64,000 nucleotides of DNA from contig NC_012489.1 of NCBI RefSeq assembly GCF_000010305.1, positions 186,001 through 250,000 on the forward strand, read 5' to 3'. The position numbers were made by a program, and so were the translations under genes. Positions 7,019 to 43,234 of the stretch are shown here, piece after piece. The stretch's first letter is position 1. Every line of letters begins with the position of its first letter. Source of the stretch: Gemmatimonas aurantiaca T-27. GTDB lineage: Bacteria > Gemmatimonadota > Gemmatimonadetes > Gemmatimonadales > Gemmatimonadaceae. Below the pieces are notes generated by a model. It worked only from the letters and a program-made list of their open reading frames with translations, did not search any database and was not told the DNA's origin.

Positions 7019-7048
7019 TCCACTTCGTCGTACAGGCGTCCGCCCTCC

Positions 7049-7645: not shown

Positions 7646-7718
7646 TTTCGGGGGGTGGATTGTTCCCAGGGCGTGGCTCGGGGACATCTCTTGTCCATTC
7701 CATTCACCGGAGTTCGTC

Positions 7719-9890: not shown

Positions 9891-9907
9891 GCAACATCAC
9901 CACCATC

Positions 9908-10231: not shown

Positions 10232-10263
10232 TTGCGCGCGGTTGATCGAGTGGGGCTGATCCC

Positions 10264-21850: not shown

Positions 21851-21954
21851 GGCATGCTCATCTTCGTGTCGACAGTATTGGCAGGGTCGTTCCGAGACGC
21901 GAGGTATTGTTTCGCGCACCCAACGTGCCGACCCATGACCTGAACTACAACTGT

Positions 21955-22935
21955 ATGCCCGGATTCTGGATGGTGCGAGCTGGCGAGGGGGGATATCTCG
22001 CCAAGGAGTTTGTGGAGAAGGAGTGTGTCGCTGTCGGATTCGATGGCGTTGGATCATTTGAGCAGCTGACCACTCTCGGTGCCTTCAAGGGGAGACTGCT
22101 CGGGGTCTATCCCGATGATTCTCCTGGAAAGCGAGCAGGAGCAGCTGGGGTGGGTCACAAGTTTCGCACGCTAGTTCAGCGGGGCGACCGCATCCTCACG
22201 TATGATCCGGATACCCGACTGTACCATCTGGGTCGTGTAGAGGGGGACTACGAGTATCGCCCCGGGTTTGTGAGCGACTATTCACACGTGCGAAGAGTGA
22301 AGTGGGATCGGCAGATTCTTCGCGACACGCTCTCCTCAGGCGTTCGCAATACACTGGGATCCACTCTCACGTTGTTCGAGCCGGGTGATGCGATATTGCA
22401 GGAGATGCTGAGGTCGGGAGTATCCGCAGAGACTCCCGCCGTCCTGGATGAGGAGGATCGAGGTGACGAGACGACCATCTATCTCGAACAGTTAAGCCGC
22501 TCACATGAATTCATCGCGGATCGGGTCAACCGGCTGTCTCCCCATGAAATGGAACAGCTGCTGGCTGCTCTTCTTCGGACCATGGGATTCAAGGCCCGCG
22601 TAACGCTACCTGGGCCCGATCGAGGGCGGGATGTAGTTGCTTCTCCTGATGGTCTCGGCCTTCAGAGTCCGCGCATTTTCTGTGAAGTCAAACATCGCAA
22701 GGGTTCGATCGGTGCGCCGGAGGTTCGTAGCTTCACTTCCACGCTGCGGGGAGATGATCGCGGGCTGTTTCTCAGCACAGGTGGGTTCACGCGGGAGGCG
22801 AAGTATGAAGGTGACCGCTCACACGTGCCCGTCACTCTTGTGGATCTGGAAGAGCTGGTACGCCTTGTGGTTGAACACTATGAGCAGTTCGATACTGTCG
22901 GTCGCGCGCTGATCCCGCTGGACCGGGTATACTAG
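21955..22935 (+). CDS. Mrr-type restriction endonuclease with EVE-like N-terminus
   Basis: A 326-residue defence nuclease. The C-terminal Mrr_cat domain (about residues 185-310) starts NRLSPHEMEQLLAALLRTMGF. It has the PD-(D/E)xK core GPDRGRDVV followed by FCEVKHRKGSIGAPEVRSF, with Asp, Glu and Lys in place and the trailing Glu. The N-terminal half (FWMVRAGEGGYLAKEF, LLGVYPDDSPGKRA, DRILTYDP, YHLGRVEGDY) resembles EVE/PUA-like modified-base readers. Together they suggest cutting of modified DNA. First gene of the defence island, convergent with hsdR. No clear RBS; ATG 21955 is the first in frame after the SDR promoter region. Confidence 0.8.
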   Translation: MPGFWMVRAGEGGYLAKEFVEKECVAVGFDGVGSFEQLTTLGAFKGRLLGVYPDDSPGKRAGAAGVGHKFRTLVQRGDRILTYDPDTRLYHLGRVEGDYEYRPGFVSDYSHVRRVKWDRQILRDTLSSGVRNTLGSTLTLFEPGDAILQEMLRSGVSAETPAVLDEEDRGDETTIYLEQLSRSHEFIADRVNRLSPHEMEQLLAALLRTMGFKARVTLPGPDRGRDVVASPDGLGLQSPRIFCEVKHRKGSIGAPEVRSFTSTLRGDDRGLFLSTGGFTREAKYEGDRSHVPVTLVDLEELVRLVVEHYEQFDTVGRALIPLDRVY

Positions 22936-26329: not shown

Positions 26330-28327
26330 CTACTCCGATCGAACGCGGTAGGCCTGCGCCGGATGATTGGGCTCGTTGGGGTGTGTCATCTGGATGACAC
26401 CGTCCTGAACCATGGGCTGCAGATATTGTTCGCGAATGTACGCGGGGTTTCGGCGGAGCACCGTACTCAGTTCGTCTATTTGCCAGGCTCGGAGAGTCAG
26501 CAGTTCCTTGATCACTGTCTTGACCTGCTGAGGGCGGGATCGTTCACCGAGGCCGCCGACCAAAGCGGCCACATCTCCCGGCACCGGGGCGAGAAGCGTA
26601 CTTCGCCGCTCTTTGGCAGCCAGTTGCTCCAAATCCGGTCTGTTAGCTAGGGACCTCGACTCCCCAGATAGCGGCGGGAGGTCCCCAGACAAGGATGGGA
26701 ACTCCCCAGATAAGGCGGAGAGCTCCACAGATAAGGGCAAAGACTCCACAGATAAGGAAGCAACGGATGCACCGGACTTCGAGCTGGCGCTGGTGCCTTG
26801 GTCGAAGCTGGATGCTGCTGTTGCATTCCCCGCCATGCCCTTGAGACGAAGCCCCGGGACATAGAAGGTGGCTGAACCACGCCCCTTCTGTTCCAACACG
26901 GCAGCATCTCTCAATCGCCGGAGTGCCTGACTGGCCGCAAGGGTATCGACCCGGTTCAGCTGCCGATAGCTGGCGTTGTCGATTGCGCCGGCTTCACGGA
27001 CAACGATCAGCGCCTTCGCATCTTCATCCGTGAGATGGAGATCGCGAAAATTGGCGAGCCACGCGATATCGTCTGCGCCGAGAAAATGATGAAAGAGGTA
27101 GCGGGCGACGAATTCATCGCGGCCTCGATCGCTTTCGAAAACCGGCGGCGTGAGGCCGGCCTCGGACATCATTTCCCGCATAACCCGAATCCCGCTGCCC
27201 TTCGTTTCGGCGAAACGGGTCTCGTGCAGGATTGCGGCGATCTTTGGATTGCGCGGCTGGGACCCGGGTTCGCCAAGATGCTCGGGTGACTTGAGCGAGA
27301 ACCCCGGGTTACGAATCTCCAGCCGATTGGCGTAGCGGATGATCTGCACCGGGCCATGATTGCGGTAACTGCGGTGCATGACCGCGTTCACGAGCGCCTC
27401 GCGAATCACTCGCTGCGGAATGATAGGCGTGTCCGTGCGTTGCAGTTGGCCTTCCTCGAGACCAAAGGACTGAGGCAGGTCGTCCAATACGGCGGCCTGT
27501 GCCCGCCGAATTAACTTGAAGAGCGGATCCCGGAGCTCGACAGTATCGAACCGTTTCTCCGGATCCGGCACCCACTCCTTTCCCGGGACGCGGATATAGT
27601 CCACGCGCGTCATGGGAAAGCAGCGACGCAATGCCTGGCGCGTACCGAAGACAATCAGACCAGCAACGGTCGGCTTCCAGTCCTCGCCTTTGGCGTGCCG
27701 ACGTACTGCGCCAAGCGCCTGCAGCAGCTCGAGATCGGTCCAGCGAAGCGCTTCCGCGTCAACGTTAAACTCCGACTGCGAACGCCGGTACTCGGCGATC
27801 GCCTCCGACGAAATGTCCTCGAGTGAGGCATCAGCCACGATCCCACTGTCATAACTCTGCTGCTCCCGGCCCTGATAGAGGAGCGCCACATCGTCATCGG
27901 TGCAGCGCTGATCGGTACTGCCGACACGCCGGAAAGCGCCCTTGGGCAAACCCGTATTCTTGAAGAATATGGGCTTGTCGTGTGGTGGTGCTTCGGGAAC
28001 CGTGACCACGATAACGGGCTTCCCATCGACCTGCTCGGTCGACACGTCCACCCGCACCGGCACGTTGAACATGTCGCGGCACTGCGTGGCAATCTCCGCT
28101 GACACCTTGTCCGGCTGTGCAACGCCAACTGCCGAATAGCTTGGGAAGAGTGAGAGGTCATCGCGTTCAACGCCGAGCAGAATGCTGCCACCGCCGAGGC
28201 CGGGCTCGTTGGAGAACGCACACACGGTCTCGAGCAATGACCGGCCGGTGTCACTGCCGCGCTTGGCCTCGATATGTTCGTGCTCATCGAGTGCATTCAG
28301 GCTCTCGAGGAGTTCAATGGCGCTCAT
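26330..28327 (-). CDS. AlbA_2/Schlafen-type ATP-binding protein in the hsd operon
   Basis: A 665-residue protein. The N-terminus (EHEHIEAKRGSDTGRSLLETVCAFSNE, then GSILLGVERDD) is the AlbA_2 domain, a putative nucleic-acid-binding or RNase-like fold. The middle (REALVNAVMHRSYRNHGPVQIIRYANRLEIRNPG and LHETRFAETKGSGIRVMREMM) is the ATPase/HATPase-like part of the RecG-related family. Winged helices follow at about 415-470 and at the end (LLTLRAWQIDELSTVLRRNPAYIREQYLQPMV). Between them lies a linker of five 7-residue repeats. Such genes often accompany type I systems; the role is unproven, and restriction control or an extra effector are both possible. Confidence 0.8.
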   Translation of the reverse strand: MSAIELLESLNALDEHEHIEAKRGSDTGRSLLETVCAFSNEPGLGGGSILLGVERDDLSLFPSYSAVGVAQPDKVSAEIATQCRDMFNVPVRVDVSTEQVDGKPVIVVTVPEAPPHDKPIFFKNTGLPKGAFRRVGSTDQRCTDDDVALLYQGREQQSYDSGIVADASLEDISSEAIAEYRRSQSEFNVDAEALRWTDLELLQALGAVRRHAKGEDWKPTVAGLIVFGTRQALRRCFPMTRVDYIRVPGKEWVPDPEKRFDTVELRDPLFKLIRRAQAAVLDDLPQSFGLEEGQLQRTDTPIIPQRVIREALVNAVMHRSYRNHGPVQIIRYANRLEIRNPGFSLKSPEHLGEPGSQPRNPKIAAILHETRFAETKGSGIRVMREMMSEAGLTPPVFESDRGRDEFVARYLFHHFLGADDIAWLANFRDLHLTDEDAKALIVVREAGAIDNASYRQLNRVDTLAASQALRRLRDAAVLEQKGRGSATFYVPGLRLKGMAGNATAASSFDQGTSASSKSGASVASLSVESLPLSVELSALSGEFPSLSGDLPPLSGESRSLANRPDLEQLAAKERRSTLLAPVPGDVAALVGGLGERSRPQQVKTVIKELLTLRAWQIDELSTVLRRNPAYIREQYLQPMVQDGVIQMTHPNEPNHPAQAYRVRSE
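26659..26763 (-). repeat. Five 21-bp in-frame repeats in the AlbA_2 gene
   Basis: Units starting at 26659, 26680, 26701, 26722 and 26743, each reading as CTCCCCAGATAAGG or a close variant, encode heptads of the type P-S-L-S-G-E-F. The copy number lies in a linker between two folded domains, so it can change without breaking the frame. Confidence 0.85.
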
Positions 28328-28396: not shown

Positions 28397-29734
28397 CTAC
28401 AAAGCTACGCCGACGAATCGCTCGGCGTCTTTCACACGAAGCTCGCCGGAGATGAGTTTGGGGAGCAGGGTGTCGCGGAGGGCTGTCAATGTGCGCGACG
28501 CCTTTGCGCATGCCACGATTCGCTCATAAAGTGGTCGCGCAAGTCGGTCGAATGCGTCCATGATACACGCACGAGGAGCGACCATGGGAATAGGGCGAAA
28601 ATTTGCCTTGCTGATCTCGAGAAATGTCGAGCCATTCGCGCGGCTGACAATCTGATCATGCGCGAAACTCGCCCAAAGTAGGAGGAACAAGTTCGATACC
28701 CCTGCCTTTGGCTTCATCGCGATGAAGCCCTGATTGATGGCAACCGGAGTCTCGGCTACAGCCAAATAACCAATTGGTGCACGCGAGGACAGCAGAACGG
28801 TTCCGCGAGGGAGCAGTCCCGAGCCGATCTGCGAGAGACCAAGACTAGTTACGTAACGCTCCGTTTCGAGCAGAACAGGAACAGAGAGTCCCGACAGATC
28901 TTTGGGAGTGGCCCAGGCGTGGGTGCCGTCTTCCCAAAATGTTGGCTCCTTCGTGCTGGGAGTACCACCGCCAACAACATCCGCGAGATCTCCAATCGTC
29001 TTGAGTTCCCAATTGTTCGGGATCTCTCCCATCTCCGAACCTTCGAACGAATCGGGGAATAGCTCTGCGATTGGCTGAGGAAGACAATGATGACGACCGT
29101 CAGCCTTGGCGCGAACGGGATCGAAATCCACGAACCACGACTTGAAGAGCGCGCGCGCCATTTCCTCCAGCGTTTCGCTCATGCGTCGGTTCAGCTCGAT
29201 CTTATCGTCGAGCGTGCCGAGGATGTGGGCGATGGCGCGTTGTTCGTCTAGCAGCGGTCGGGAGAACCTGAAGCGCTTTATCCGTTCAGGTGATGTGTGC
29301 TTTACTGTAGTGCCAGTAGCGCTAGCGAGAACTTCATTCCGATAGTCAGCGCTGCACAAGAGGTAGTGAAGGAACCTGCTGTCGATTGCTTGCTGATCCT
29401 TCACGAGGATCTTGCCGAGTCGCTGGTTGTGCAGGTATCTCCGGCCATCGGATCGTGCAGGAACGAAAGCAGGCAAACCAAGCGTGTCGGACTGTTTGCT
29501 GAGGTCCGTCATAGTTACTAGCAGGTCAGCCTCAGCAAGAACGAAGTCCCCAGGTACCGGGCCGTCGAAATACTTGAATTTATCGCTCTTGAATCCACCG
29601 CCTATCGAGAAGTTGCCCGGCGTAAGCAAGATGTCGCCACGTGACTCATCGCGGATAAACTCGCCTTGAAATGCGAATCCGTGCTTAATATCGATCAATT
29701 CACCGAGCGAGCACTCGCGCCACTCACCTCCCAT
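28397..29734 (-). CDS. hsdS: Type I restriction-modification S (specificity) subunit
   Basis: A 445-residue specificity subunit with two target-recognition domains in tandem. TRD1 starts [18 protein letters not shown]. The first conserved coiled-coil region contains [50 protein letters not shown]2 starts [30 protein letters not shown], and a second coiled coil ends [20 protein letters not shown]. Half-sites bind a bipartite sequence that cannot be read from the protein. The ATG at 29734 overlaps the end of hsdM by 11 nt, so translation is coupled. Confidence 0.95.
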
Positions 29735-31283
29735 ACCCAAGCTCCTTCAGGTTGGCGAGAATTGAAGCGTCGAGATCAGCCGACTCGATCTGTTGTTCGT
29801 GCAATTGCGCAGATAGCCGCCGCATCTTCAGCTCAAACGGCTCCCCATCATCCTCAATGTCTTCGGCGCCAACATAGCGACCCGGCGTCAACACATGCCC
29901 ATGCTGGCGGATCTCGTCGATGTAAACACTCTTGCAGAACCCGGCCACATCCGCGTACTCACCAGCGTCCTTGTCACCACGCCAAGCGTGATACGTGTCG
30001 GCAATATTTGCGATGTCGGCATCGGTCAGTTCACGGCGCACACGATCGGCCATTGAGCCGAGCTTGCGCGCATCGATGAACAGCACGTGCCCGCGCCGAT
30101 CACGGAAGCGCCCGTTGCGTTTGTTGCGCGCCAGGAACCACAGACACACGGGAATCTGCGTGGAGTAGAACAACTGCCCCGGCAGCGCCACCATGCAGTC
30201 CACGAGATCGGCTTCCACAATCGTTTTGCGGATCTCGCCTTCACCCGACTGGTTGGACGACATGGAGCCATTGGCCAGCACGAAGCCGGCGAGTCCGGTG
30301 GGAGACAAATGATGAATGAAATGCTGCACCCAGGCGAAGTTCGCATTGCCTGCGGGCGGCGCTCCGTACGCCCAGCGCTGATCGTCCTTCAGCAGTTCGC
30401 CGCGCCAATCGCTGTCGTTGAACGGCGGATTGGCCAACACATAGTCGGCCTTGAGATCGGGATGTTTGTCATCGTGCAGCGTATCTCCGTGGCCGATCTG
30501 CGCATCGATGCCACGGATGGCCAGATTCATCTTGGCCAGACGCCACGTGGTGTAGTTGCTCTCCTGTCCGTAAATGGAGATGTCGTCGAGTTTGCCCGCG
30601 TGGGCTTCGATGAACTTCTCGCTCTGCACGAACATGCCACCGGAGCCGCAGCAGGGGTCATACACACGCCCCTTGTACGGCGCGAGCATTTCCACCAGCA
30701 CACGCACGACATACGATGGCGTGTAGAACTGCCCGCCGCTCTTGCCTTCGGCGCTGGCGAAACGTGACAGGAAGTACTCATACACGCGGCCCAGGGTGTC
30801 CTTGCTCTTGTCAGCCGAACTACCCAGTTCGATATCGCTGACCAGGTTGATGATCTGTCCAAGCCGCTGCTTGTCGAGGCCGGGGCGCGCGTAGTCCTTG
30901 GGCAGCACCCCCTTGAGCGACGGATTGTCGCGCTCGATGGCGGCCATGGCATCGTCGACCATTGTGCCGACACCAGGCTGCGGCGCATTGGCCTTGAGGA
31001 ACTGCCAGCGCGCCTCGGCCGGAACCCAGAAGATGTTGTCGGCGCGGTACTCATCCGGATCTTCCGGATCGGCGCCGTCCGCATGCTGACTCGCGAGCTC
31101 GGCGTGTTTGATCTCGAAGGCGTCGGAGATGTATTTGAGAAAAATCAGGCCGAGCACGACGTGCTTGTATTCGGCCGCATCCATGTTGTTGCGGAGGGCG
31201 TCGGCGGCAGCCCAGAGCTTGGCTTCGAAGCCGATATTGGCCGAGGTTGCGGCGGACTTACTGGCCTTCTTGGCTCGTGCCAT
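29724..31283 (-). CDS. hsdM: Type I restriction-modification M (methyltransferase) subunit
   Basis: A 519-residue N6-adenine methyltransferase subunit. The N-terminal helical domain ([37 protein letters not shown]) is followed by the SAM-binding motif [11 protein letters not shown] and the catalytic motif LANPPFND (NPPF). [17 protein letters not shown] precedes motif I as in the family. It methylates host sites together with HsdS. First gene of the hsd operon. The upstream 560-bp gap contains two inverted repeats that could bind a regulator. Confidence 0.96.
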
Positions 31284-31890
31284 TTCGGGAGGTCGCGGAC
31301 GGGGGTGGCAAAGAAGATCAAAGTGACGTCGATGATCGGTTGTATCAACCGTATGACGTTGCCAATTCGCGACTTAGCAATCTGAATCTGTTTCAGATCA
31401 CGTTGGATCTGAAAATGAACGACTGGGCTTCGCCAAACGGAAGCCGAAGTGTATCTTTGGCACTCGTCTGTCGAGAGTGCTAAACGGTACCACATACCGG
31501 AGGCGTCGATGGGGTCGAGTCCGAAGGAGCGAAAGGGCAACAAGTACCCGGCTGCCCAGAATGGCACGGCATTGGGAATGGGATCGGGAGGGATGGCAGA
31601 AGAGCAGCAAAGCCAAGATTTCGTGCTGGTACATGTCCGGAAGGCGAATCTGGCCAGGACCAGCCACGGATCGGCCGTAGCGCGTGTTGGTGATGGCGCG
31701 GAAGTAGGCGGCGACCACGGGACGCTCGGGAGTTTCCGAGCCGCTGACCTGATCATTGTGCGCGATCTCGGACTTCGCCGGGGAATCCTGTGGGACAAGG
31801 CCAATCCTGACGCGCCGGTGGTGCGCATGAGGCGGGGCCGGTATGCGTGATCGCAGTGGTCGTCGTGATCAGGGTCAACTGGCACTCCGC
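31284..31890. other. 607-bp gap between divergent hsdM and the Cys-rich gene
   Basis: Contains the short palindrome CGGTTG-TAT-CAACCG (31337-31351), the inverted repeat at 31391-31414 and no convincing gene. A leftward frame near 31620-31790 has protein-like codon use (residues such as FRAITNTRYGRSVAG and IRLPDMYQHE) but lacks a start and degrades downstream, so it may be the remnant of a lost gene. The rightward 133-codon frame at 31449-31850 has no RBS and atypical codons. Confidence 0.4.
31391..31414. promoter_or_regulatory. Inverted repeat upstream of hsdM
   Basis: TTTCAGATC-ACGTTG-GATCTGAAA, perfect 9-bp arms with a 6-nt spacer, about 110 bp before the hsdM start. The size and symmetry suit a dimeric repressor, as C-proteins or other regulators use at restriction loci. 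No C-protein gene is recognisable here. Confidence 0.5.
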
Positions 31891-31906
31891 ATGACAACGG
31901 AGTGCC
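31881..31906 (+). promoter_or_regulatory. Hairpin with the start codon in its loop
   Basis: GGCACTCCG (31881-31889) and CGGAGTGCC (31898-31906) form a perfect 9-bp stem around the loop CATGACAA, which contains the ATG at 31891. It may be an operator palindrome or an RNA hairpin that limits initiation. Confidence 0.5.
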
Positions 31907-32985
31907 CCAAATGCGACGCGTACACGCTTTGCGGTGGCGCCTCCACCGTTCCGTGCGAGTGTGTTTACGCGCGTTCTGACCCCTCGCACAAGCAATGCGG
32001 AACCTGCGCGCTCTGGTGCAGAGAGCGACACCTGCCTGGCCAGCGCAGTTATGCCGAGGAATACCAGTTTTTGACGTCTTTGCAGGGCACGGGGGATTCT
32101 TTCCAAGACGCACTGGGGATCCTTCCTGCGTTCGTTCCAAGCAAAGTCGAAGAAATTCCAATCGATCAGCGACTCATCGCGCCATGGGTGGCGATCGAAT
32201 TGCGGAAGTTGCTGACGTCTACGACGAAGTCCGCAGCGCGGCTGTCCGGTGTCGCACTGACGCAGAGTCTACGCGCAAAAATGCGAGTATCCGACGAGAC
32301 CTCGCTCATCGTCCTTCTGCACGGGAACGACAATCTCCTGGAGCGCTTCTGGGAGATGGACCGCCAGCCCTTCTACCAGCAACTCCTCAAGCACAATATC
32401 AATGCCATCATGGGCACCACGTTCTCGTTGTACAATGAGGGCAGGCTCCGACCGGCATCGCACAATGTCATGCAGCTTCGCCGTCACAGTCATGTGCTGC
32501 ACGAACTGTCGAGCTACGGGCTGACCTACATCCCGAATCTCTACCTGCGCGCAGTGAAGGATGAAGTTGAGCTGGCTGCCTGGCTTCGTGATCGGACGGA
32601 TATTCGTCAGGTAGCGCGTGATTTGTCCATGAACAAGACGTGGCGCGCGAAGGAAGTCGAACTGGATCTACTCGCGAGGGCCTTGGACCGTACTGCCCGC
32701 AACTTCAACGTGCTCGTTACCGGGGTCTCTATCGGCACCTACCGAGAAGTCGTGTCACATCTGCACAAGAATGGGCACACGTGTACCGTGGTGACACCAG
32801 ACCCCATCATGAAAGCACATCATGGTCGGAATCTCGCTTCTCGAGAGGCTGGAAGTCGGACTACCCTGTACCAGCGGAATCTTGAACGCATGGATCGAGA
32901 GATCAGAGCGCTCGACCAGCAGTTGGGTATTAGACGCACCCCGACCTATCCCGGGTTGGCAGTGGCAGGTGCTCAGGCAGCGTAG
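31891..32985 (+). CDS. Uncharacterised Cys-rich protein of the defence island
   Basis: A 364-residue protein I do not recognise with confidence. The first 45 residues hold nine Cys (CPKC, CGG, PCEC, QCGTCALWC), enough for zinc or Fe-S binding. The body reads SLIVLLHGNDNLLERFWEM, then INAIMGTTFSLYNEGRLRPASHNVMQLRRH and YGLTYIPNLYL. This order weakly resembles DUF4417-like TIM-barrel proteins, a guess from pattern. A basic tail includes RNLERMDREIRALDQQLG. Lower GC at third positions than the housekeeping genes suggests transfer. It is convergent with fic (14 nt apart). ATG 31849 would add 14 residues; 31891 is chosen since the Cys-rich part starts right after it. Confidence 0.6.
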   Translation: MTTECPKCDAYTLCGGASTVPCECVYARSDPSHKQCGTCALWCRERHLPGQRSYAEEYQFLTSLQGTGDSFQDALGILPAFVPSKVEEIPIDQRLIAPWVAIELRKLLTSTTKSAARLSGVALTQSLRAKMRVSDETSLIVLLHGNDNLLERFWEMDRQPFYQQLLKHNINAIMGTTFSLYNEGRLRPASHNVMQLRRHSHVLHELSSYGLTYIPNLYLRAVKDEVELAAWLRDRTDIRQVARDLSMNKTWRAKEVELDLLARALDRTARNFNVLVTGVSIGTYREVVSHLHKNGHTCTVVTPDPIMKAHHGRNLASREAGSRTTLYQRNLERMDREIRALDQQLGIRRTPTYPGLAVAGAQAA

Positions 32986-32999
32986 TCTGGTCGTGGTGT

Positions 33000-34361
33000 C
33001 TATTCTTGCAAGCGCACCGCAAGATCTCCCGCCGGCTCAAATGCAAACGCCTTGCTCACCTTGAACTGCCGTAGCAAGCCCAGTTCGGCCATTCGCAACA
33101 GGTCTGTGCGCGCGGTCTGATAGCTGGTGCCGTGCGAGCGTTGATGCGAAGCCACCGTGTACTGCGCACTGGGCGTATTCAGCGCATGACGCAACAAGGC
33201 GAGCTGTCGCGGATTGAGATTGCCCTGTGCGATGGATGTCTGCCGAACCAGTCGTTCGATATCCCGCATTTGCTGTGTCTTGCGTGCGAGATACTCATGC
33301 AGATCCTCGATCGCGCGCACCAGCGTGCGTAGCTGATGCAGCACGAAGTACGTGGTGTCGTTGCTGTCGCTCTCCGTATACAGGTACGAGCGGGCGTAGG
33401 CACCACGCGCTTTGCGGAGGATGCGTGAAATGGACACGTACTCACACAACCAGTAACCGGAACGTGCCATCGACCAGTAGAACAGCGCTCGCGCGGTGCG
33501 ACCGTTGCCGTCTACAAAAGGGTGGTCGTAGGCCAACCAGAAGTGCAGCAGGATGGCGCGAATGACGGGGGGCAGGAACTCGGTGTCGGATGTGCCATTC
33601 GCAAAGTCACACATCGCGGCGAGCCGCTGCGGCAGTTCATCGGCATGCGGCGGATGATGAAGAATGGTGCCGGTCTCATCTTCCACCACGATATGCTCGT
33701 CAGCCCGGCGAAAACGCCCCGCGCCCGATGGGTCGTCCATCGTGCTTTCGGTGAGCATGCGTTGCAGCGCAAAGACAAATTCCGGTGTGAGCGCTCCCTG
33801 TCGGTGATCACGGACAAGCAGCATGCCCCGATAGTTGTTCAGGATCATGCGCTCGCTTCGCGTGGCTGCGGGCCGCCCTTCCTGGATCATGGCCTTGGCC
33901 ACGCGCCGGGTCGTTGACGCCCCCTCCAGCTGGCTGGAGCTGATGGCCTCCTCCACGATCGACTTGAACAGGTAGGTATCCCGGGTGGCCGTATTGGTGA
34001 TGGGTTCGGCGCCCACAAACCCACCGCCTACGTTCCCACTGGCATCGCGATCGATGCGGTGAAGGAACTCCAGCACCGGGGCCGGCATGGCCACCGTGAA
34101 CGGATGGGACTTTGTGTCCAGTAACGGCAGCGGGCGGGCGAGTGCGTCCCGCGACGTGCGGACGGCCAGCCACTGCTCCTCGGCGGAATAGTCGGCGAGA
34201 GGCGGGGCGTGCCTGAAGTTGCCCCAGTGGCGGTATTTACCACTTGGAGCGGGCCCCAGTCCTCGTGCCATCAGGGCCTGAAAGCGTGTCGCTCCCTCCT
34301 CCTTGGAGAGGAGAAGGCCCAGAATGCTGGAAGTTGTTGGCGGACTGTCCGGTCGTTTCAT
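33000..34361 (-). CDS. Fic family protein (AMPylase-type)
   Basis: A 453-residue Fic protein with the N-terminal Fic_N domain. The catalytic motif at 280-288 is HPFVDGNGR, a perfect HPFxxGNGR, so nucleotide transfer (usually AMP) to a hydroxyl side chain is expected. The inhibitory helix motif S-x-x-x-E-G (residues 142-147) lies N-terminal, which makes this a class II, self-inhibited Fic protein. The C-terminal 90 residues form a winged helix (SYQTARTDLLRMAELGLLRQF) that could bind DNA or autoregulate. It is divergent from zorA across a 202-bp AT-rich region with an inverted repeat. Target unknown. Confidence 0.9.
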   Translation of the reverse strand: MKRPDSPPTTSSILGLLLSKEEGATRFQALMARGLGPAPSGKYRHWGNFRHAPPLADYSAEEQWLAVRTSRDALARPLPLLDTKSHPFTVAMPAPVLEFLHRIDRDASGNVGGGFVGAEPITNTATRDTYLFKSIVEEAISSSQLEGASTTRRVAKAMIQEGRPAATRSERMILNNYRGMLLVRDHRQGALTPEFVFALQRMLTESTMDDPSGAGRFRRADEHIVVEDETGTILHHPPHADELPQRLAAMCDFANGTSDTEFLPPVIRAILLHFWLAYDHPFVDGNGRTARALFYWSMARSGYWLCEYVSISRILRKARGAYARSYLYTESDSNDTTYFVLHQLRTLVRAIEDLHEYLARKTQQMRDIERLVRQTSIAQGNLNPRQLALLRHALNTPSAQYTVASHQRSHGTSYQTARTDLLRMAELGLLRQFKVSKAFAFEPAGDLAVRLQE

Positions 34362-34563: not shown

Positions 34564-36573
34564 ATGATTGAGTTCATGCTTCCGTTCCTCCAGGCGGTCT
34601 CAGGCACTGGACGCCCGATCGGCGAATTTCTCGCAGGGATTCCAGTTGAAATCCAATTCTTCTGCTATCTGATCGCGGTAGTACTGGTCGCATCCTCCGC
34701 ATATGGCATCATCGGAGCCCGTCGGGTTCACGCCGCTGCTATGGCAGTGAAGGGTGCACTGCAGCAGCTCGGCCCACTTGACGATGACACGCGACTCCTG
34801 GGGCGTTCGTTAGGCAGTATCGACGGATGGCGCGCCGCGGCAAGTAGGCTCGCTCCCGCTCACCACCCGCTTGCGGAAGAAATCGAGCGCGAACTAGTGA
34901 CTTCACTGGATGTCGATGGTAGACGTCGATTCAGGCTGAGAAATCGCGAAGGCGGACTATGGACACTCGAGCGCCTGACCGAACGTTATGTCAATCTCGA
35001 CTATCTCGACGCAGTACCAGGAATTCTTACAGCGATTGGACTCATTGGCACATTCCTCGCTATCGCTTTGGGACTCTCGGGCCTGAGATCCGAAAATAAT
35101 GTCGTGATTGGTGTGGACGCCCTCTTGGGCAGCCTCGGTGGAAAGTTCGTGTCATCGATCGCGGCGCTCCTGGCCGCACTCGTGTTTCAGTTGTTGGATC
35201 TGTGGGGGCTCCGCCTCGCCTACAAAAAAACCCATCAATCGCTCATCGATGCAGTCGCTGACGGATTTCCCGGACTCTCGCCAACCCAACAGATCACCGA
35301 TCTCCTCGAATCCGCACACCGGCAGGAGCAAGCTCTTTCAAACATCTCTAGTGATGTCGTCAATCGATTCTCCGATGTGTTCGCATCAAATCTGCTACCA
35401 GATCTTGGGGCGCTGCTTGCCAAGAGCGTGCAGACCGAGATGGGCCCCGTCCTTCAACAGGTAGCAACAGGTATCTCCGCACTAGAGGACGGCATCCGAC
35501 GCCTAGAGTCAGGCAAGCAAGAGTCGATCGGAGCCGAGCTGCGATCGCTGACGGAAAACCTCGAGACCTCCATTCGCCGTGCACTCGAGCAGATGGGGGC
35601 ACAGTTCCGGGATTCCCTCTCGGGAAACACAAACGATGAATTCAAACGCGCTGCTGAGGCCATGCAGGGAAGTGCCTCGGTGCTCTCCGGAATGAACAAC
35701 TCCTTTGCAGACATGCAGGCTTCGATGCAACGCATGTTCGAGGAAGCGGAGAAGCGTGGCAGTGAGGCTTTCGCTGAGGGCGAGGGACGCACACGGGCAC
35801 TGAACGACCTGGTGGAGCGCCTGGTGGCACAACTCGGCGATAGTGCGAGCGCAAATGCCAACCAGGTGCAGCAGCTCCTTGTAGAAGCGGTCTCGAACAT
35901 GGGTGGCAAGCTTGCCGAGGTCACCGGCGAATTGGAACGTCGCACTCTCGAAGCAAACGAACAGAATCAGCGCACCAGTGAAGCGCTGCTGCACAAAGTG
36001 ACCGGAGCTGCCGAGCGAACGACTTCTGAAACTGAACGGTTGCTGGCCGTCATTGGCGAGCGAGCAGGAGACTTTGTCGCCGCCGCCGATCAACTTGCTG
36101 AACTACGGGCAGCGGTTCAGTCGGTGTTGGCGGAGACGGGACAGCGTGTGCGGGAGATGCAGGGTGCAGCCGACTCGTTCCGTTCAGTGGCGACGGAAGC
36201 CGGCGCAATGACTCGCACGCTTCGGGAAGCGCAGGCCAGTCATCTGAAAGCGGCCGAAACCGTAAGTGGTCTCGTACACAGGACCGGGGAGGTTGTCGAG
36301 CGACAAGCGGTGGTAGTGCAGCTCTCCCAAGACACCTACAGCGAAGCCGCCCGCGTTCTCTCCGGGCTCGATGAACAATTGGCCAGTGCGCTGCAGACGA
36401 TCTCCACGCACATGCAGGACTACAATCGCCAAGTGGAGAAAAACTTCCAGATCATCATGAATTCGGTGAACTCGAAGATGCCGGAACTGTTTGAACGACT
36501 CGGAGGACTGCTGCAGCAAGTCACGGATTCTGTTGAAGAGCTCGGGGATGTTCTGAAGCGGCAGAACCGGTAG
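34564..36573 (+). CDS. zorA: Zorya type I motor protein ZorA
   Basis: A 669-residue inner-membrane protein with the MotA/ExbB fold. TM segments lie near residues 25-48, 150-172 (VPGILTAIGLIGTFLAIALGL) and 195-218 (FVSSIAALLAALVFQLLDL). The C-terminal 440 residues form a long coiled coil with heptads (NLETSIRRALEQMG, AQLGDSASANANQVQQLLVEA, and so on), the ZorA tail that projects into the cytoplasm. In known Zorya systems ZorA5B2 is a proton-driven rotary motor that senses phage infection and recruits the effectors. First gene of zorABCD; zorB follows after 4 nt. Confidence 0.93.
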   Translation: MIEFMLPFLQAVSGTGRPIGEFLAGIPVEIQFFCYLIAVVLVASSAYGIIGARRVHAAAMAVKGALQQLGPLDDDTRLLGRSLGSIDGWRAAASRLAPAHHPLAEEIERELVTSLDVDGRRRFRLRNREGGLWTLERLTERYVNLDYLDAVPGILTAIGLIGTFLAIALGLSGLRSENNVVIGVDALLGSLGGKFVSSIAALLAALVFQLLDLWGLRLAYKKTHQSLIDAVADGFPGLSPTQQITDLLESAHRQEQALSNISSDVVNRFSDVFASNLLPDLGALLAKSVQTEMGPVLQQVATGISALEDGIRRLESGKQESIGAELRSLTENLETSIRRALEQMGAQFRDSLSGNTNDEFKRAAEAMQGSASVLSGMNNSFADMQASMQRMFEEAEKRGSEAFAEGEGRTRALNDLVERLVAQLGDSASANANQVQQLLVEAVSNMGGKLAEVTGELERRTLEANEQNQRTSEALLHKVTGAAERTTSETERLLAVIGERAGDFVAAADQLAELRAAVQSVLAETGQRVREMQGAADSFRSVATEAGAMTRTLREAQASHLKAAETVSGLVHRTGEVVERQAVVVQLSQDTYSEAARVLSGLDEQLASALQTISTHMQDYNRQVEKNFQIIMNSVNSKMPELFERLGGLLQQVTDSVEELGDVLKRQNR

Positions 36574-36577
36574 GCGA

Positions 36578-37270
36578 ATGCAGAAAGGATCTGGTGCGGC
36601 ATCGTCATCTCTGACGGACATACTCGCGTCACTGGTCGCGGTGTTCGTATTGCTGTTCGTTGCGGCTCAAAACAACCGCGGTGCGGGGGTGGTCACGGCT
36701 CGCGATGTGCTCATCAAGCAACTCAGGGGAGAACTGGTTACCGCAGGTCTGGACAGTGCGGCGATCGACTCCATTCCGAACGATCCAAGTACAGTGCTCG
36801 TGATTCTCCCGGACAGCGTGCTGTTTGAACGGGGCGATAGCCGCATGTCTGCGGCAGGGCAGAATGTCGTGCGAATCGCGACACCGTTGCTGGCAGGTGT
36901 CATTTGCGCTGATAGTATCCGCCAAACGCTCGATCAGGTTGTCGTAGAAGGTCACACCGACAACACGATTCCGTTCGGAATGAGGCCAGAGGCTGGCCGC
37001 ATGTTCAATCTCGAATTGAGCCAGCGGCGATCCATGAACTTTGTTGCGACGAGTACGGCCACGCTAGCTGAACGCGACACCTTGCTCGAGTGCTACCTCG
37101 GCCTAGTCTCCGCAACTGGCCGCGGTCAGGAAAATCCCCTTCCTCGCATTCCGGCCGACTCATCACCTCAGCGTCGAGTGGTGCTGCGCATCCGCCTCAA
37201 GACCGAGATCCGGGACTCCGTACGCATTGTCCAGGATGTCATAGGAGGGGGCGGTGCAGAAAATCCTTGA
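36578..37270 (+). CDS. zorB: Zorya ion-channel and peptidoglycan-binding protein ZorB
   Basis: A 230-residue MotB/OmpA-like partner of ZorA. One TM helix (residues 15-33) follows Asp14 in SLTDILASLVAVFVLLFV, the expected proton-carrying Asp. The periplasmic OmpA-type domain has VVVEGHTDNTIPFGM, ELSQRRSMNFV and the late QRRVVLRIR, as needed to bind peptidoglycan. It overlaps zorC by 17 nt. Confidence 0.92.
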   Translation: MQKGSGAASSSLTDILASLVAVFVLLFVAAQNNRGAGVVTARDVLIKQLRGELVTAGLDSAAIDSIPNDPSTVLVILPDSVLFERGDSRMSAAGQNVVRIATPLLAGVICADSIRQTLDQVVVEGHTDNTIPFGMRPEAGRMFNLELSQRRSMNFVATSTATLAERDTLLECYLGLVSATGRGQENPLPRIPADSSPQRRVVLRIRLKTEIRDSVRIVQDVIGGGGAENP

Positions 37271-38633
37271 CTCGCTGCGCCGCGTGATCGCCGTCGCGGC
37301 CATCAATGTGGAATCCCGACTCGCACTGACTCTCGATCCAGCGCAGGAGTTGGGACCATTGGAGCTGGCTCTGACGCGCTTGCGATCCCAGGGACCGATT
37401 GACGGAGCGGGGCGTCCCTCCGGAATCGATCCTGATGCACTCTGGGCGCGCTGGACAATGTCGACACAGAGTTCAGAAGAATTCAGTCTTCGGGAACTGC
37501 GGGCTCTTTGCTGGGATAGCCGGGCCGTCGAGGATCTGCGTTTTCTGGAGTTGCTAGAATCTGATGGGCATATTCCAAAGCGAGGCGCCTTCCTTAGAGG
37601 CTTGTGGCACTGCCACCAGCATCATTGGCGCCTGCGCTCAGCCAGTCGTCTCGAGTCGTACTTCTTGTTGGCTACAACACAGGCTGAACACCGGACGCGT
37701 TGGCTAGAACAACTCAATGAGTTGCCGGAGATGCTCACAGACAATGCAGCGCGATCAGTTGGCCGCGCACTGTTTGCCCGACTTGACGCCGTTGGGTCGA
37801 CCATCGACAACCTCCGTCTGACAGCCCCGGGCCAGTTGGCACAACTGGCCTTGCGGGCCTGTCGATCCGAATGGCTGGATGCATTGAAGCTCTACGCGGA
37901 GCAGAACGACCCACGGGTAATTTCCGTACTGCACCAGGGCCTTGGCGGGCTATTGCACAGCGACCTCACAAGCAAGGAGGACTTTCCGAAGGTCGTAGAG
38001 TGGTTGTTGGAACTGTTGGACCGATCCGGTGACGCATACCGAAAGGCATTGGCAGATTGGATTGTGTCCGACCGGAGACTCGGACACCCTCGCAGAATCG
38101 GCACGAGTGCGAACTGGATGGGCGTCTCTGAAAAGGCGCGCCTCGCAGCACTGCGCTTGTTTGCCGCCAAAGACATCGGTCGATTCTTTGACATACTGAT
38201 TGGTCGCCAGTTCGATACTCAGAGTCGCCGTCCTTTTTGGGAGCAGTACATCAATTCGCCTCAGTTTGTCGACTATGCAATCGCTTGTGATCCAGAGGAT
38301 CGAAAGCGGTTGATCGCGAATTGGACAGACGGAGTGCCCGATGTCGCGCGATTGGACGGAGCACCAGACAGGCACAGCGCATTCATCATGAGATTTCGCA
38401 CAATCCACTACGATCTGATTGTCGTGGAGATGAGTCGCGCGAACAACGCAATGTACCTATTCGACACAAGCGACTTCGAAGACGAAGTTGGTACCTTGGA
38501 GAAATCCAGATTTCGATTCTCCGCGCTCAAGAATCGTAGCGTGGCGGCGAGAACCTGGTCTCATAGCCATTCCTGGCAGTTTCGCTTCGCCGGCAATCTG
38601 AGGGAGTTCGGAATCGTGAGAGGTCCACAGTGA
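37254..38633 (+). CDS. zorC: Zorya type I protein ZorC (EH_signature domain)
   Basis: A 459-residue cytoplasmic protein. The C-terminal third with PFWEQYINSPQF, DRKRLIANW and VEMSRANNAMYLFD, then a Trp/His-rich end (ARTWSHSHSWQFRF), fits the EH_signature region that defines ZorC. The N-terminal part is helical. ZorC is an accessory DNA-binding subunit in described type I systems. The GTG start at 37254 lies inside the end of zorB, and the stop overlaps the zorD start by 4 nt. I assign it from position plus these motifs; on sequence alone it would be weaker. Confidence 0.85.
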   Translation: MQKILDSLRRVIAVAAINVESRLALTLDPAQELGPLELALTRLRSQGPIDGAGRPSGIDPDALWARWTMSTQSSEEFSLRELRALCWDSRAVEDLRFLELLESDGHIPKRGAFLRGLWHCHQHHWRLRSASRLESYFLLATTQAEHRTRWLEQLNELPEMLTDNAARSVGRALFARLDAVGSTIDNLRLTAPGQLAQLALRACRSEWLDALKLYAEQNDPRVISVLHQGLGGLLHSDLTSKEDFPKVVEWLLELLDRSGDAYRKALADWIVSDRRLGHPRRIGTSANWMGVSEKARLAALRLFAAKDIGRFFDILIGRQFDTQSRRPFWEQYINSPQFVDYAIACDPEDRKRLIANWTDGVPDVARLDGAPDRHSAFIMRFRTIHYDLIVVEMSRANNAMYLFDTSDFEDEVGTLEKSRFRFSALKNRSVAARTWSHSHSWQFRFAGNLREFGIVRGPQ

Positions 38634-41600
38634 AGGAAGCTCAGGCCAACTCGGAACCCAATACATATTGGCTCTCGGCGGCGCCAGGAGGGTTGATCGT
38701 CGGGAAGGGTCAACCTGCAGGATCTGTATCATCTCCGAACTTGTTGCTGGGGGCAAATACCGATGGTGAACTCTCAACCGATATTGCGATTCTTCGAGAA
38801 CAGGGCCTCGCGACCGACCACGAGGATGGGTGGAGAGTCTCATGGCCAGACTGGCCCCTCGCGCTGGATCTCGGCGCAAGAAGTCTGATTGCCCATTCCA
38901 CCCTTTGTCATCTCGTGCTCCAGATTGACAGACGGAGTGAGTTGGGGCGTTCAGACTTTCGCTACATAGTTCGCTGGCGCGAAGGGGCGCATGAGGTGGA
39001 GGTCACCCGGTTCGGTGCCTATGTGCGGCATGAAGCGACAAACCGCGTCATGCATCTTGACAAGAGATTGCTGGAGATCGCGGAAGCGATCGATCACTTC
39101 AACGCACTGACGCCTGCCGAACGAAGCAGCCGCAAGAACGTTTGGGGCACACTGGCGTCCATTGCCGGAAATGCCCGAGAACTGGGAGCGAGATTGGATC
39201 GACACCTTGATTCCAATCTCGTGATCGTGCCGCCGACCATTGGACTCCTCATTCGTGGCGATGAGAATGGGAACGTCAGCTTCCTTCCCAGACTTCCCGG
39301 CGAAGGGGATAGTGAGGCCTTCCGGTTGGAGTTCGAGCGCGCGCTGGACATTCAGGACGTCATGTCGGTCACACTTCCCGATCGTCGCGTGGCTCGAGTT
39401 CTGCTGTCGGAGCCTCAACGAGAAGTGCTGCGACGTATGCGCAAAGTCCGCCACCTGCCGGTAGCGGATGTTGGAGAGTTACTGGATGATCCGTCGCCAA
39501 TATTTGACGGGGTCTTCGACGCTATCGACCTGGCGGATATCTCTCGTGAGTACGGCATTCGTGTGATAGGAATCGGTAGTCTGACCTTGCCAACGGACGT
39601 TCGGCCCGTCGGGGGCCCTTCGGTCTTCGATCGAATGCAGTTGTCGGAATTAGTTCCCACTCCACAGCTGCCGCTCGCCCCCCCCGCTTCTGAATCCGCC
39701 GGCACGGGCACCCAACGCTCCGTAGTGTCCATTGATGTGTTGGAAGCAGAGACTGGATCGGTTCACACGGTACGACTTTCAGGGGATGAGGCGGTACGTC
39801 GGCTTCAGGGCCAGGTGAGAGCGTGCCTCGCTGACGGCGCTGAGCATTTCCTGCATGAAGGAGTTGCCATCAAGGCTGAACCTGAACTGGTGGCAGCTCT
39901 GGATCGCCACATCAGTGGGCCCGTGCCGGGGAGAGAAGACGATGTCGGGTCGGTCGGGCGTTCCGGTCACCTGTATCTGCTAATCAACGAACACGAAGAT
40001 TCCCTGACGCCCGGGCTCGAGGTTGTTCCGCTACCGGATGGAGATGTGGTGGAAGCACCTCGGTCACTTCCTCTGGCGCTTCACGATTCAATCAAACTCA
40101 AGAGTCACCAGCTCGACGGTGTTCAGTGGTTGTCCACATGTCGAGGCATGCCAGGTCGTCGAGGTGCGGTACTTGCGGACGACATGGGGCTTGGGAAGAC
40201 CCTGCAAGTTCTGGTTCACATAGCATTGCTACTCGAGTCGGGAACGGCGCTGGATGGTCTGGGATCAGACCGGAATGGCCCATGGAGACCTGTATTGATC
40301 GTGGCACCGCTGCTGCTTGTGGAGTCAGGTGTCTGGACCGAGGAAATGCGGTCTCGGTTTGCGAACTCGGGTCGTGTGTTCGAGCCGTATGTTGTTCTGC
40401 GCGACGAGGGAATTCGGAAGGTCATGCACAACTCTGGTGAGCGCGACTATCTCGGCAAGCCTGTTCTCGATCCGGCGAAGCTCATGGCGCACAAGGTCGT
40501 GATCACGACCTACGAAACCATGATGGCATATCAGCACAGCCTCGCGCAGCTCGTCGGTGGGCGACCGATGTGGTCGTTGGTGGTATTCGATGAGGCGCAG
40601 GAGGTGAAGTCCCCGAAGACGAAGCAGAGTATTGCGGCGAAAGCGCTTGATGCCCGGTTCAAACTGGCGGCCACGGGTACCCCGGTGGAGACTCGACTCC
40701 GGGACCTCTGGAACATTCTTGATACGGTTGAGCCTGGCCGGCTTGGTACACAGAGGGCATTCGTCACGGCATACGAGCGACCGGCGATGAAGCCGAATAG
40801 AGGGTCTGAGCGTCAGGCGGCACTGGATGCGCTGCGAGTGGCTATCCGCTACGAAAGACCGGGTGCGTTGTTGATCCGACGGGACAAGCGCATTTTGTCC
40901 GATCTGCCAGAGCGGATTGAGCATCGCGTCAAATGCACCATGACCCCTGTGGAGGAAGAAATCATGGGGCGGATTCGCGCGGACCTTGGGTCCACGGCTG
41001 GTCGACGCCAGCCTCTCGCTGCACTTCAACGGCTGCATCTTTGCACCCAGCATCCCGTTCTGGCGGGTGCGGCAACCGGACATGATGTCGACGCGCTGAT
41101 CGCCACGTCAGCGCGACTCGCTCAGCTTCTCAAATTGTTGCGCGAAATCCAAGTGCAGAGTGAGAAGGTGCTGATCTTTGCGCGAAGCGTCGACTCACAA
41201 AGACTGCTGGCGCGGGTGATTGCGCAGTCCCTCGGTACGCAGGTCGATATCGTCAACGGTCAGACCGGGGTCACGGGAGGTCGTGCGACAAGTGGAACTG
41301 TTCGACGTGAGATTCTCAGTCGATTTCGTGCCACACCAGGTTTCGCTGCCATCGTCCTGTCTCCATTCGTTGCAGGTGTTGGTCTGACGCTGACTGAGGC
41401 CAACCACGTCGTGCACTATGGCCGATGGTGGAATCCTGCCATCGAGAATCAAGCTACGGATCGAGCCCATCGCATTGGTCAGACCAAGCCGGTTCATGTG
41501 TACTACCTTCTCGGAACTTATCGAGCGCCTGAGCAACGATCCTTCGACGAGGCGCTCGATGACCTTCTGCGTGAGCGCAGAGATCTCGCTCACGACTTCC

Positions 41601-42082
41601 TGTCGCCCGTCACAGAAGACGCCAATGCGGAGCTGCTCATCCAGCGGCTTGGCTCGTCGGCACGGCCGATCAGCCTGGTCGCACGAATGGAGCCTACCAC
41701 GGTGAGTGAGGCGGCGGCGATGCTCCTATCACTAGCCAGGTCTCGCGATGAGTCTGCCGTTTGGCTTGACGCGGAGGGTATGTATGGGGCGCACGCTCTG
41801 GTCGCCAGACAAGGCGTTGTGCTAGTTGCGAGGATCGTCCAGGTGGACTCAGTTGAAGAGCAGCAACTTCTATTGTCGGCGCAGAGGGCCTGGCAGGATG
41901 CGCTCGGTGTGAGGACAGAAGGATTGATGCTCGCATGTCATGGCTCTGTGGACATCAATACCAAGACTTGGAAGGCCCTCCGCCTCGAGCTGGATAGCCA
42001 AAGCTCGGTGGACCCCGACTACTTGTTGACGCCGTACCGTAGCGTCCACGATGTGCGAGAACGTTTATTGCGACATATATAG
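38630..42082 (+). CDS. zorD: Zorya type I effector ZorD (SNF2 helicase/nuclease)
   Basis: A 1150-residue protein. The N-terminal 450 residues are the ZorD-specific part. The SNF2 motor starts near 475: LKSHQLDGVQWLSTCRG, Walker A DDMGLGKTLQVL, Walker B VVFDEAQEVKS (DEAQ in place of DEAH) and ATGTPVETRLRDLWN. The second lobe has VLIFARSVDSQRLL, PFVAGVGLTLTEANHVVHYGRWWNP and DRAHRIGQTKPVHVYYL. A C-terminal segment of about 150 residues includes a predicted beta-rich region and could hold the nuclease-like part. ZorD degrades or unwinds phage DNA once activated. GTG start, coupled to zorC. Confidence 0.93.
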   Translation: MKEAQANSEPNTYWLSAAPGGLIVGKGQPAGSVSSPNLLLGANTDGELSTDIAILREQGLATDHEDGWRVSWPDWPLALDLGARSLIAHSTLCHLVLQIDRRSELGRSDFRYIVRWREGAHEVEVTRFGAYVRHEATNRVMHLDKRLLEIAEAIDHFNALTPAERSSRKNVWGTLASIAGNARELGARLDRHLDSNLVIVPPTIGLLIRGDENGNVSFLPRLPGEGDSEAFRLEFERALDIQDVMSVTLPDRRVARVLLSEPQREVLRRMRKVRHLPVADVGELLDDPSPIFDGVFDAIDLADISREYGIRVIGIGSLTLPTDVRPVGGPSVFDRMQLSELVPTPQLPLAPPASESAGTGTQRSVVSIDVLEAETGSVHTVRLSGDEAVRRLQGQVRACLADGAEHFLHEGVAIKAEPELVAALDRHISGPVPGREDDVGSVGRSGHLYLLINEHEDSLTPGLEVVPLPDGDVVEAPRSLPLALHDSIKLKSHQLDGVQWLSTCRGMPGRRGAVLADDMGLGKTLQVLVHIALLLESGTALDGLGSDRNGPWRPVLIVAPLLLVESGVWTEEMRSRFANSGRVFEPYVVLRDEGIRKVMHNSGERDYLGKPVLDPAKLMAHKVVITTYETMMAYQHSLAQLVGGRPMWSLVVFDEAQEVKSPKTKQSIAAKALDARFKLAATGTPVETRLRDLWNILDTVEPGRLGTQRAFVTAYERPAMKPNRGSERQAALDALRVAIRYERPGALLIRRDKRILSDLPERIEHRVKCTMTPVEEEIMGRIRADLGSTAGRRQPLAALQRLHLCTQHPVLAGAATGHDVDALIATSARLAQLLKLLREIQVQSEKVLIFARSVDSQRLLARVIAQSLGTQVDIVNGQTGVTGGRATSGTVRREILSRFRATPGFAAIVLSPFVAGVGLTLTEANHVVHYGRWWNPAIENQATDRAHRIGQTKPVHVYYLLGTYRAPEQRSFDEALDDLLRERRDLAHDFLSPVTEDANAELLIQRLGSSARPISLVARMEPTTVSEAAAMLLSLARSRDESAVWLDAEGMYGAHALVARQGVVLVARIVQVDSVEEQQLLLSAQRAWQDALGVRTEGLMLACHGSVDINTKTWKALRLELDSQSSVDPDYLLTPYRSVHDVRERLLRHI

Positions 42083-42151: not shown

Positions 42152-43234
42152 TCACCCCAGAAACCGCCCGATCGCCAGTTCGGTCAGCTCGAACACCTTT
42201 CCGACATCATCACCGTTGACCCGGCCGAGCAGTCCGCTCCGCCAGTCTTCCGGAATCCACGCCGTGCCATGCGCTGCCCCCATGGCCGCGCCGACGATGG
42301 CAGCGATGGTGTCATTGTCCCGGGTGTCGTTCACGGCCACCAGCATGGCTTCCTTCGGGTCATGCCCATGCTGAGCCAGGATGTGCAGCACGGCGGGCAC
42401 GGTTTCCAGCAGATACGCACCGCTGTACCACTGCTCGCCGGTCTTCCGCACGCTCACCCCACGCCGCACGGCGTCGCGCACCTGCGTGTCGAGCATGGCG
42501 GACAAGCTTCCGCGCCAGTGCTGCAACGCGCCACTCTGCACGCGGGACTCATAGCTCTGTCCATGATCGAGCACCCGCAGCACTTCCGTGTACGTCTCGA
42601 GCCACTCGGCAGGGGCTTCCGGAAGGTCGCCATTGAGCAACCGCCACAGCAGCGCGATCCATGCCACGCTGCTGCTGATCGCCATGGCGTCGTTGTGAGT
42701 CACTGCGGCTGACAGAGCGGTGTCGTACCACACGTCGGTGCCACCTTTCAGGAGATGTGGCAATACGGTGGGGGCAATGCGCATCAGCGCACCGTTGCCG
42801 GCGCTCAATTGTGTGGCTTCCCACCATGGCGCCCCGGTACGCAGTGCATTGCAGAAATCGCGTGTGCTGCGGCCGATGCCAAAGATTCGATCGTTGGCAA
42901 TGCGGAACGCGAGTTCGTCCGGAACGAGGGCTCCGTCGGCCAGCAATTGCTCCACCGCCCGGAACGTGAGCTGCGTGTCATCGCTTGGGGTGCCAGCCGG
43001 TGCGCCATCCGCGTAGCGACTGGGCAGGTAACCGACGATGCGGCCGTACTTGGCCTCGCGTTCAGCCGGATTCATGCTCTCGCTGCGATTGCCCAGTGCA
43101 TCACCGATGGCCACCCCCAGCAACATGCCACGCACACGATCCGCAATATCGGGCGCGTCGATCGCCGGTGCCGGCGGCAGGATGGCCAGGCGTTCGCGTT
43201 CGAGGCGGGGAATCCAACTGGGTACGGACATCAT
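42152..43234 (-). CDS. ADP-ribosylglycohydrolase
   Basis: A 360-residue hydrolase of the DraG/ARH family that removes ADP-ribose from proteins or small molecules. Metal-binding motifs are complete: GVAIGDALG, SDDTQL (residues 84-89) and the late DTRDNDTIAAIVGAAMGAAHG, with NGALMRIAP typical of the family. The product is soluble. It is convergent with zorD (69 nt apart) and divergent from a small lipoprotein gene. At the edge of the defence island it could reverse a modification, but housekeeping roles are also known. Confidence 0.88.
   Translation of the reverse strand: MMSVPSWIPRLERERLAILPPAPAIDAPDIADRVRGMLLGVAIGDALGNRSESMNPAEREAKYGRIVGYLPSRYADGAPAGTPSDDTQLTFRAVEQLLADGALVPDELAFRIANDRIFGIGRSTRDFCNALRTGAPWWEATQLSAGNGALMRIAPTVLPHLLKGGTDVWYDTALSAAVTHNDAMAISSSVAWIALLWRLLNGDLPEAPAEWLETYTEVLRVLDHGQSYESRVQSGALQHWRGSLSAMLDTQVRDAVRRGVSVRKTGEQWYSGAYLLETVPAVLHILAQHGHDPKEAMLVAVNDTRDNDTIAAIVGAAMGAAHGTAWIPEDWRSGLLGRVNGDDVGKVFELTELAIGRFLG

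Follow-up and report, generated by a model that had tools for sequence, protein, structure and literature searches.

The Cys-rich gene that stands between hsdM and a Fic gene in Gemmatimonas aurantiaca T-27 is almost certainly one half of a two-gene cassette, in which a small gene for a protein of HIRAN-like predicted fold is directly followed by the gene for a DUF4417-like protein with a predicted TIM-barrel body. The cassette lies in a defense island behind a candidate CIRCE operator, in the window analyzed here (the whole stretch of 64,000 nucleotides, bases 186001-250000 of a genome that consists of one contig of 4,636,964 bases; positions refer to this window unless another locus is named). 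The explanation that we prefer, and about which we are evenly divided between acceptance and doubt, is that of an HrcA-repressed accessory anti-phage or anti-plasmid cassette, pairing a HIRAN-like protein with a DUF4417-like TIM-barrel enzyme, that would be induced at GroEL overload. The pairing, the evidence for the gene starts, the setting among defense and mobile genes, and the CIRCE sequence are observed, and from these we infer the defense function, the action on DNA, and the control by HrcA.

The gene pair and its start codons

The small gene (31509..31850, plus strand) encodes a protein of 113 amino acids (MGSSPKERKG...) with a disordered, Gly-rich N-terminus followed by a HIRAN-like β domain, and is preceded by the Shine–Dalgarno sequence GGAGG at 31499..31503 (plus strand). 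It was found with a leave-one-out HMM of five relatives, which ranked it first among the 929 ORFs in six frames of the window (E 7e-6; runner-up E 3.6) and whose alignment to it starts exactly at its first Met. The relatives comprise two loci from Gemmatimonadota (L002/L010 and L003/L011), one from the Salinibacter ruber plasmid pSR56 (L004), one from Fodinibius halophilus (L008), and one from an uncultured member of Desulfobacteraceae (L009). The small and the Cys-rich gene form an adjacent pair in all six genomes, overlapping by 8 bases at one extreme and lying ~13 bases apart at the other; in the five relatives, a small gene starting with MG(K/S/A) is found directly upstream of the large gene, ~1 to 13 bases apart.

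The preliminary description had taken ATG 31891 as the start of the Cys-rich gene and had described it as enclosed in a 9-bp stem. The perfect stem exists (GGCACTCCG-CATGACAA-CGGAGTGCC, 31881..31906, plus strand) and ATG 31891 does lie in its loop, but this ATG does not appear to be the real start. The reading frame is open from there back to ATG 31843, which has the Shine–Dalgarno sequence GAGG at 31829..31832 (plus strand; 10 nt upstream) and overlaps the stop codon of the small gene by 8 bases, as ATGCGTGA; no Shine–Dalgarno-like sequence stands ahead of ATG 31891. In alignments, the five relatives have residues, including a Leu that is conserved (for the most part as LW or LF), ahead of the first conserved Cys, the counterpart of this Leu in the window is located upstream of 31891, and the match of a five-relative profile of the large protein begins at 31882. 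Based on the Shine–Dalgarno sequence, the overlap with the upstream gene, and the homology ahead of 31891, we place the translation start at 31843 with high confidence as far as sequence features allow, yielding a gene of 380 codons' worth of protein (380 aa; 31843..32985, plus strand). The overlap ATGCGTGA also suggests that the two cassette genes are co-transcribed and translationally coupled.

Given that the start probably lies upstream at 31843, the hairpin is most likely contained within coding sequence. The proposal that it gates translation draws on the perfection of the 9-bp stem, the ATG in its loop, and a local fold with z = -2.5; against it stand the upstream start, with its Shine–Dalgarno sequence, coupling, and homology, and the abundance of such stems. 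Perfect stems of at least 9 bp with loops of 3–10 nt give 18 records in the window, nested so that they represent 11 separate places, where a first-order Markov model predicts 4.3 records per 64 kb, and the stem as such is thus unremarkable in this sequence. No comparable hairpin is present at the starts of the five relatives, the outcome that the preliminary description itself had named as speaking against its reading; the start region of the Fodinibius relative has an unrelated fold (z = -3.6). With a misplaced start and a lack of conservation, we reject the hairpin as a translational switch and regard such gating as extremely improbable.

Families and predicted folds of the two proteins

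The preliminary description had assigned the Cys-rich protein to no secure family and had noted a weak resemblance to DUF4417, and our searches agree with both statements. No Pfam, NCBIfam, or PADLOC model matches the large protein (PADLOC up to E 0.1), and the Pfam model of DUF4417 (PF14386) matches neither the window protein nor any of the five relatives at E values up to 10. However, a tblastn search with the large protein retrieves plasmid proteins annotated as DUF4417, and a profile–profile comparison (hhalign) of the six relatives with six DUF4417-annotated proteins aligns the whole barrel over 312 columns with a probability of 99.7 and E 1.2e-25. A distant relative, L005, passes the PF14386 cut-off (29.7 vs 28.9 bits). 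At the level of sequence profiles, the large protein is a divergent relative of DUF4417; the barrel motifs GxD...W, PxFS...P...R, and (I/V)PNxYW are shared with the DUF4417 proteins of actinobacterial plasmids and with phage ParB-DUF4417 fusions. A PF14386 search of 149 related genomes gave no match, but the control genomes were equally blank, which makes it uninformative.

The N-terminal head of the large protein (CX2CX5CGG-X5-PCXC-X11-CX2CX3CRER; 31903..32028, plus strand) is Cys-rich as first reported, with eight Cys residues (residues 21-59 of the 380-aa form) rather than nine, and these probably form two metal sites that would bind Zn or Fe-S. Alignments identify the same head in some of the actinobacterial plasmid DUF4417 members. 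The body (32116..32817, plus strand) is predicted to be a (β/α)8 TIM barrel: an AlphaFold model built from three sequences has the alternating element order of a TIM barrel, with a pLDDT of 47 overall and mostly 60-84 for residues 210-320, and TIM barrels fill the list of structural matches. Many kinds of TIM barrels are tied in this list (Z 9.9-10.5), and these ties together with the poor model (pLDDT 47) allow neither a catalytic family to be named nor a catalytic site to be defined. Seven of the head Cys residues are invariant in all six proteins, as are D163, W170, T193-F194-S195, E199, N208, R214-H215, P231-N232, Y234, R236, and D260. A PDB sequence search with the large protein returned nothing useful, and PDB profile matches to cystathionine β-lyase/synthase and to designed barrels were set aside as weak and partial.

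The small proteins match no Pfam family, HIRAN included, in any of the six genomes up to E 10, and the resemblance to HIRAN lies in the predicted fold alone. It was assessed with a structure model of the Desulfobacteraceae protein (three sequences; pLDDT 71.6, mostly 70-89 for residues 31-112), which contains six strands and two helices. The top Foldseek match of this model is the HIRAN domain of HLTF (probability 1.00, E 0.023); in the re-aligned list of structures, 3k2y is first (Z 8.9, rmsd 2.1 over 79 residues), followed by HIRAN structures of Rad5 and HLTF and by the C-terminus of HamB (Z 5.0-5.7). From this model, we consider it likely that the small protein adopts a HIRAN-like fold, with a predicted β fold and an order of elements similar to those of the HIRAN domains of HLTF, Rad5, and HipL/HipN and of the C-terminal region of HamB; as in known cases, it would be a small domain that stands alone and works with an effector. 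A match to the SH3 domain of yeast Pas20 (E 0.001) was discarded, as it covers 32 residues and is missing from the structural comparison.

On plasmids of Streptomyces, Kitasatospora, and Mycolicibacterium, DUF4417 genes have ParB-like neighbors, and on those of Streptomyces and Kitasatospora they are also found near genes for an ATP/GTP-binding protein and a replication-relaxation protein; in phages, DUF4417 is fused to a ParB-CTPase fold (PMC12704722). Together with the HIRAN-like partner described here, these ParB-like neighbors and fusions suggest that a DNA-binding partner of DUF4417 recurs, although the partner elsewhere is a ParB protein, beside or fused, and here a HIRAN-like one. The Dpd system of DNA modification and restriction (PMC12839542), with its TGT-fold DpdA and ParB-like DpdB, resembles the cassette in the idea of its design alone, a barrel enzyme with a DNA-binding partner. 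In a further locus (L007, 6109-9604), a Sinorhizobium DUF4417 protein that has no Cys head is encoded three genes upstream of a KwaB-like (Kiwa) gene.

Defense island and distribution of the cassette

The location of the gene in a defense island, between hsdM and fic, is confirmed. On one side, the cassette adjoins the divergent hsdM of a type I restriction–modification (RM) system (29724-31283, minus strand), whose hsdR and hsdS start at 23016 and 28397, respectively; on the other side, the Cys-rich gene is flanked by the Fic gene (33000-34361, minus strand), downstream of which lies a complete type I Zorya system (34564-42082) with ZorA, ZorB, ZorC containing EH_Signature, and the SNF2 protein ZorD, which had previously gone unnamed. 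An ADP-ribosylglycohydrolase gene (42152-43234) adjoins zorD and a gene for an Mrr-type restriction endonuclease (21820-22935) lies beyond hsdR, which makes the island larger than first stated. Between hsdR and hsdS, positions 26330-28327 encode a protein with Schlafen/AlbA_2, HATPase_c_4, and Fic-like C-terminal domains. The intergenic region between the divergent hsdM and the cassette contains a perfect inverted repeat at 31391-31414, TTTCAGATC-ACGTTG-GATCTGAAA, which has no other exact copy in the genome and one further copy with 3 mismatches (reversed control, 0); it is a possible operator of the RM genes.

The relatives, too, adjoin defense genes (Hachiman, Druantia, and type I RM) in a raw tally of neighbors. 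In L010, hamA and hamB of Hachiman are directly downstream on the same strand and a type IIG enzyme is encoded on the opposite side; positions 5859-10793 of this locus hold, on one strand, an LRAT/Peptidase_C97-like gene, the small partner gene, the DUF4417-like gene, and hamA-hamB, and Hachiman may have captured the cassette there. The Fodinibius pair lies between druH3 of Druantia and type I hsdR and hsdS. The Desulfobacteraceae locus has a PDC-M03A candidate nearby; as read from ORFs, it also has resolvase and integrase genes nearby, and L011 adjoins relaxase-like and integrase genes; the Salinibacter pair is carried on a plasmid. A DUF2188 gene is located further upstream of the pair in L002 and L004.

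The family is sparse: it was found in 3 of 395 Gemmatimonadota genomes and in samples of two other phyla in 1 of 395 and 1 of 296, besides one marginal partial match. None of the 29 other genus members that were searched carries the cassette, and no relatives of the large protein were found in viral contigs and phage records. We regard the cassette as a rare, horizontally mobile unit that was previously undescribed.

The CIRCE element and the function of the cassette

A CIRCE element, the operator of HrcA, is located at 31457..31483 (plus strand; TTGGCACTC-GTCTGTCGA-GAGTGCTAA), 25 bp ahead of the ATG at 31509. It agrees with the consensus TTAGCACTC-N9-GAGTGCTAA in 17 of 18 bases (1 mismatch) and is the sole match in the window, where 0.01 would be expected at up to 3 mismatches. 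A search of the genome with the 12-base core at a spacer of 9 finds one other site, 55 bp ahead of groES, with 16 of 18 bases (two mismatches). The reversed control of this short core occurs at five places, so that the core by itself is not significant and the case for CIRCE rests on the flanking TT/TAA and on the groES control. The genome encodes HrcA (family match, E 8.4e-50). A stricter 24-base pattern has a match in 43 of 61 related genomes, with a reversed control that is empty but for one site. We read 30 CIRCE loci of related genomes, of which 28 are ahead of groES, 42-62 bp from the ATG where measured; the remaining two are ahead of the cassette described here and of an EF-P-like gene (a CIRCE-like palindrome at 1500-1551 of L025, from a related genome). 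The half-sites, the 9-base spacer, and the position just ahead of the first gene are those of the CIRCE/HrcA regulon (groESL), although the target is a defense-island cassette rather than a chaperone operon and the distance to the start codon is 25 bp instead of 42-62 bp. On the strength of these sequence comparisons, we consider it quite probable that the element is a working HrcA operator. A scan with the sigma-70 consensus detected no good promoter ahead of the cassette, nor did the same scan detect one ahead of groES.

None of the five other cassettes has a CIRCE element at up to 5 mismatches, which implies that the operator was acquired locally and that HrcA control is not part of the mechanism of the family. 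The arms of the hairpin at 31881-31906 are likewise the CIRCE half-sites GCACTC/GAGTGC, with a spacer of 12 instead of 9; the genome contains 12 palindromes of these half-sites at spacers of 4-20, two of them here, 0.4 kb apart, a coincidence of ~0.2-0.5% by a rough post hoc count. We found no support for the suggestion that the Cys-rich gene regulates the island. The literature searched on HrcA or CIRCE together with defense reports no CIRCE-controlled defense gene, the nearest case being the clpB promoter of Mycoplasma, where an RM controller and HrcA compete (PMC5282649).

A toxin–antitoxin system, in which the small HIRAN-like protein neutralizes a toxic DUF4417-like enzyme whose release is controlled by stress, would maintain mobile elements rather than be dedicated to anti-phage defense. 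The small gene is upstream and translationally coupled, the cassette is cargo of plasmid and integrative elements, and putative antitoxins of HipA-type kinases have HIRAN domains (PMC8262856); we nevertheless consider this system unlikely given that antitoxins usually autoregulate and the small protein has no visible operator-binding domain, that the cassette in the window would be under the control of the host HrcA, and that the large protein, an enzyme-like barrel conserved at multiple sites, has no similarity to toxin families. The same low probability applies to a pair that the host adopted to help it recover after heat or DNA damage, and that sits in the island only because mobile genes collect there. 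A CIRCE element common to the cassette and groESL and a HIRAN-like partner would suit such a role; the absence of the pair from the other members of the genus, the relatives that have no CIRCE, and the repeated association with defense genes and mobile elements argue against it. Less probable still is a function in the replication, partition, or transfer of a formerly integrated element, as for plasmid DUF4417 proteins encoded next to transfer genes and ParB-like ones: the plasmid neighborhoods described above, with their ParB-like, ATP/GTP-binding, and replication-relaxation proteins, are consistent with it, but in the window, L008, and L010 there is no recognized transfer or replication gene nearby and defense genes adjoin instead.

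Under the HrcA-repressed defense cassette that we prefer, HrcA bound to CIRCE would keep the cassette promoter off in unstressed cells, which fits a costly or toxic effector. Once heat or phage infection loads GroEL with unfolded or foreign protein, HrcA would lose activity and the cassette would be expressed together with groESL; HrcA repression has been proposed to weaken when misfolded protein titrates GroE (PMC8533110). The HIRAN-like protein might then engage free or abnormal DNA ends and recruit or activate the barrel enzyme, which would act on nucleic acid as an accessory anti-phage or anti-plasmid effector. We lean toward an anti-phage or anti-plasmid role of the cassette as such. From the partners, HIRAN-like here and ParB for other DUF4417 proteins, we suggest somewhat more tentatively, by analogy, that the substrate of the barrel is DNA or its nucleotides. 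It is doubtful, if conceivable, that chaperonin overload serves as an infection alarm, with phage proteins titrating GroEL and so releasing the repressed effector pair; in phage-carrying Campylobacter, the expression of hrcA and its regulon is reported to be altered, down rather than up (PMC4534711).

Two features missed by the preliminary description, the small partner gene and CIRCE, are more informative than the hairpin. Although the hairpin does not hold up as a switch, the gene remains of interest, since it makes up one half of a previously undescribed cassette in a defense island, under a putative heat-shock operator. The cassette places part of DUF4417, which is seldom mentioned in the literature searched, in a functional context for the first time, and points to a recurring design in which a barrel enzyme is combined with a DNA-binding protein. 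Little is known about how defense genes are turned on, and a defense cassette behind CIRCE, if true, would tie immunity to the chaperonin system, on which many phages depend.
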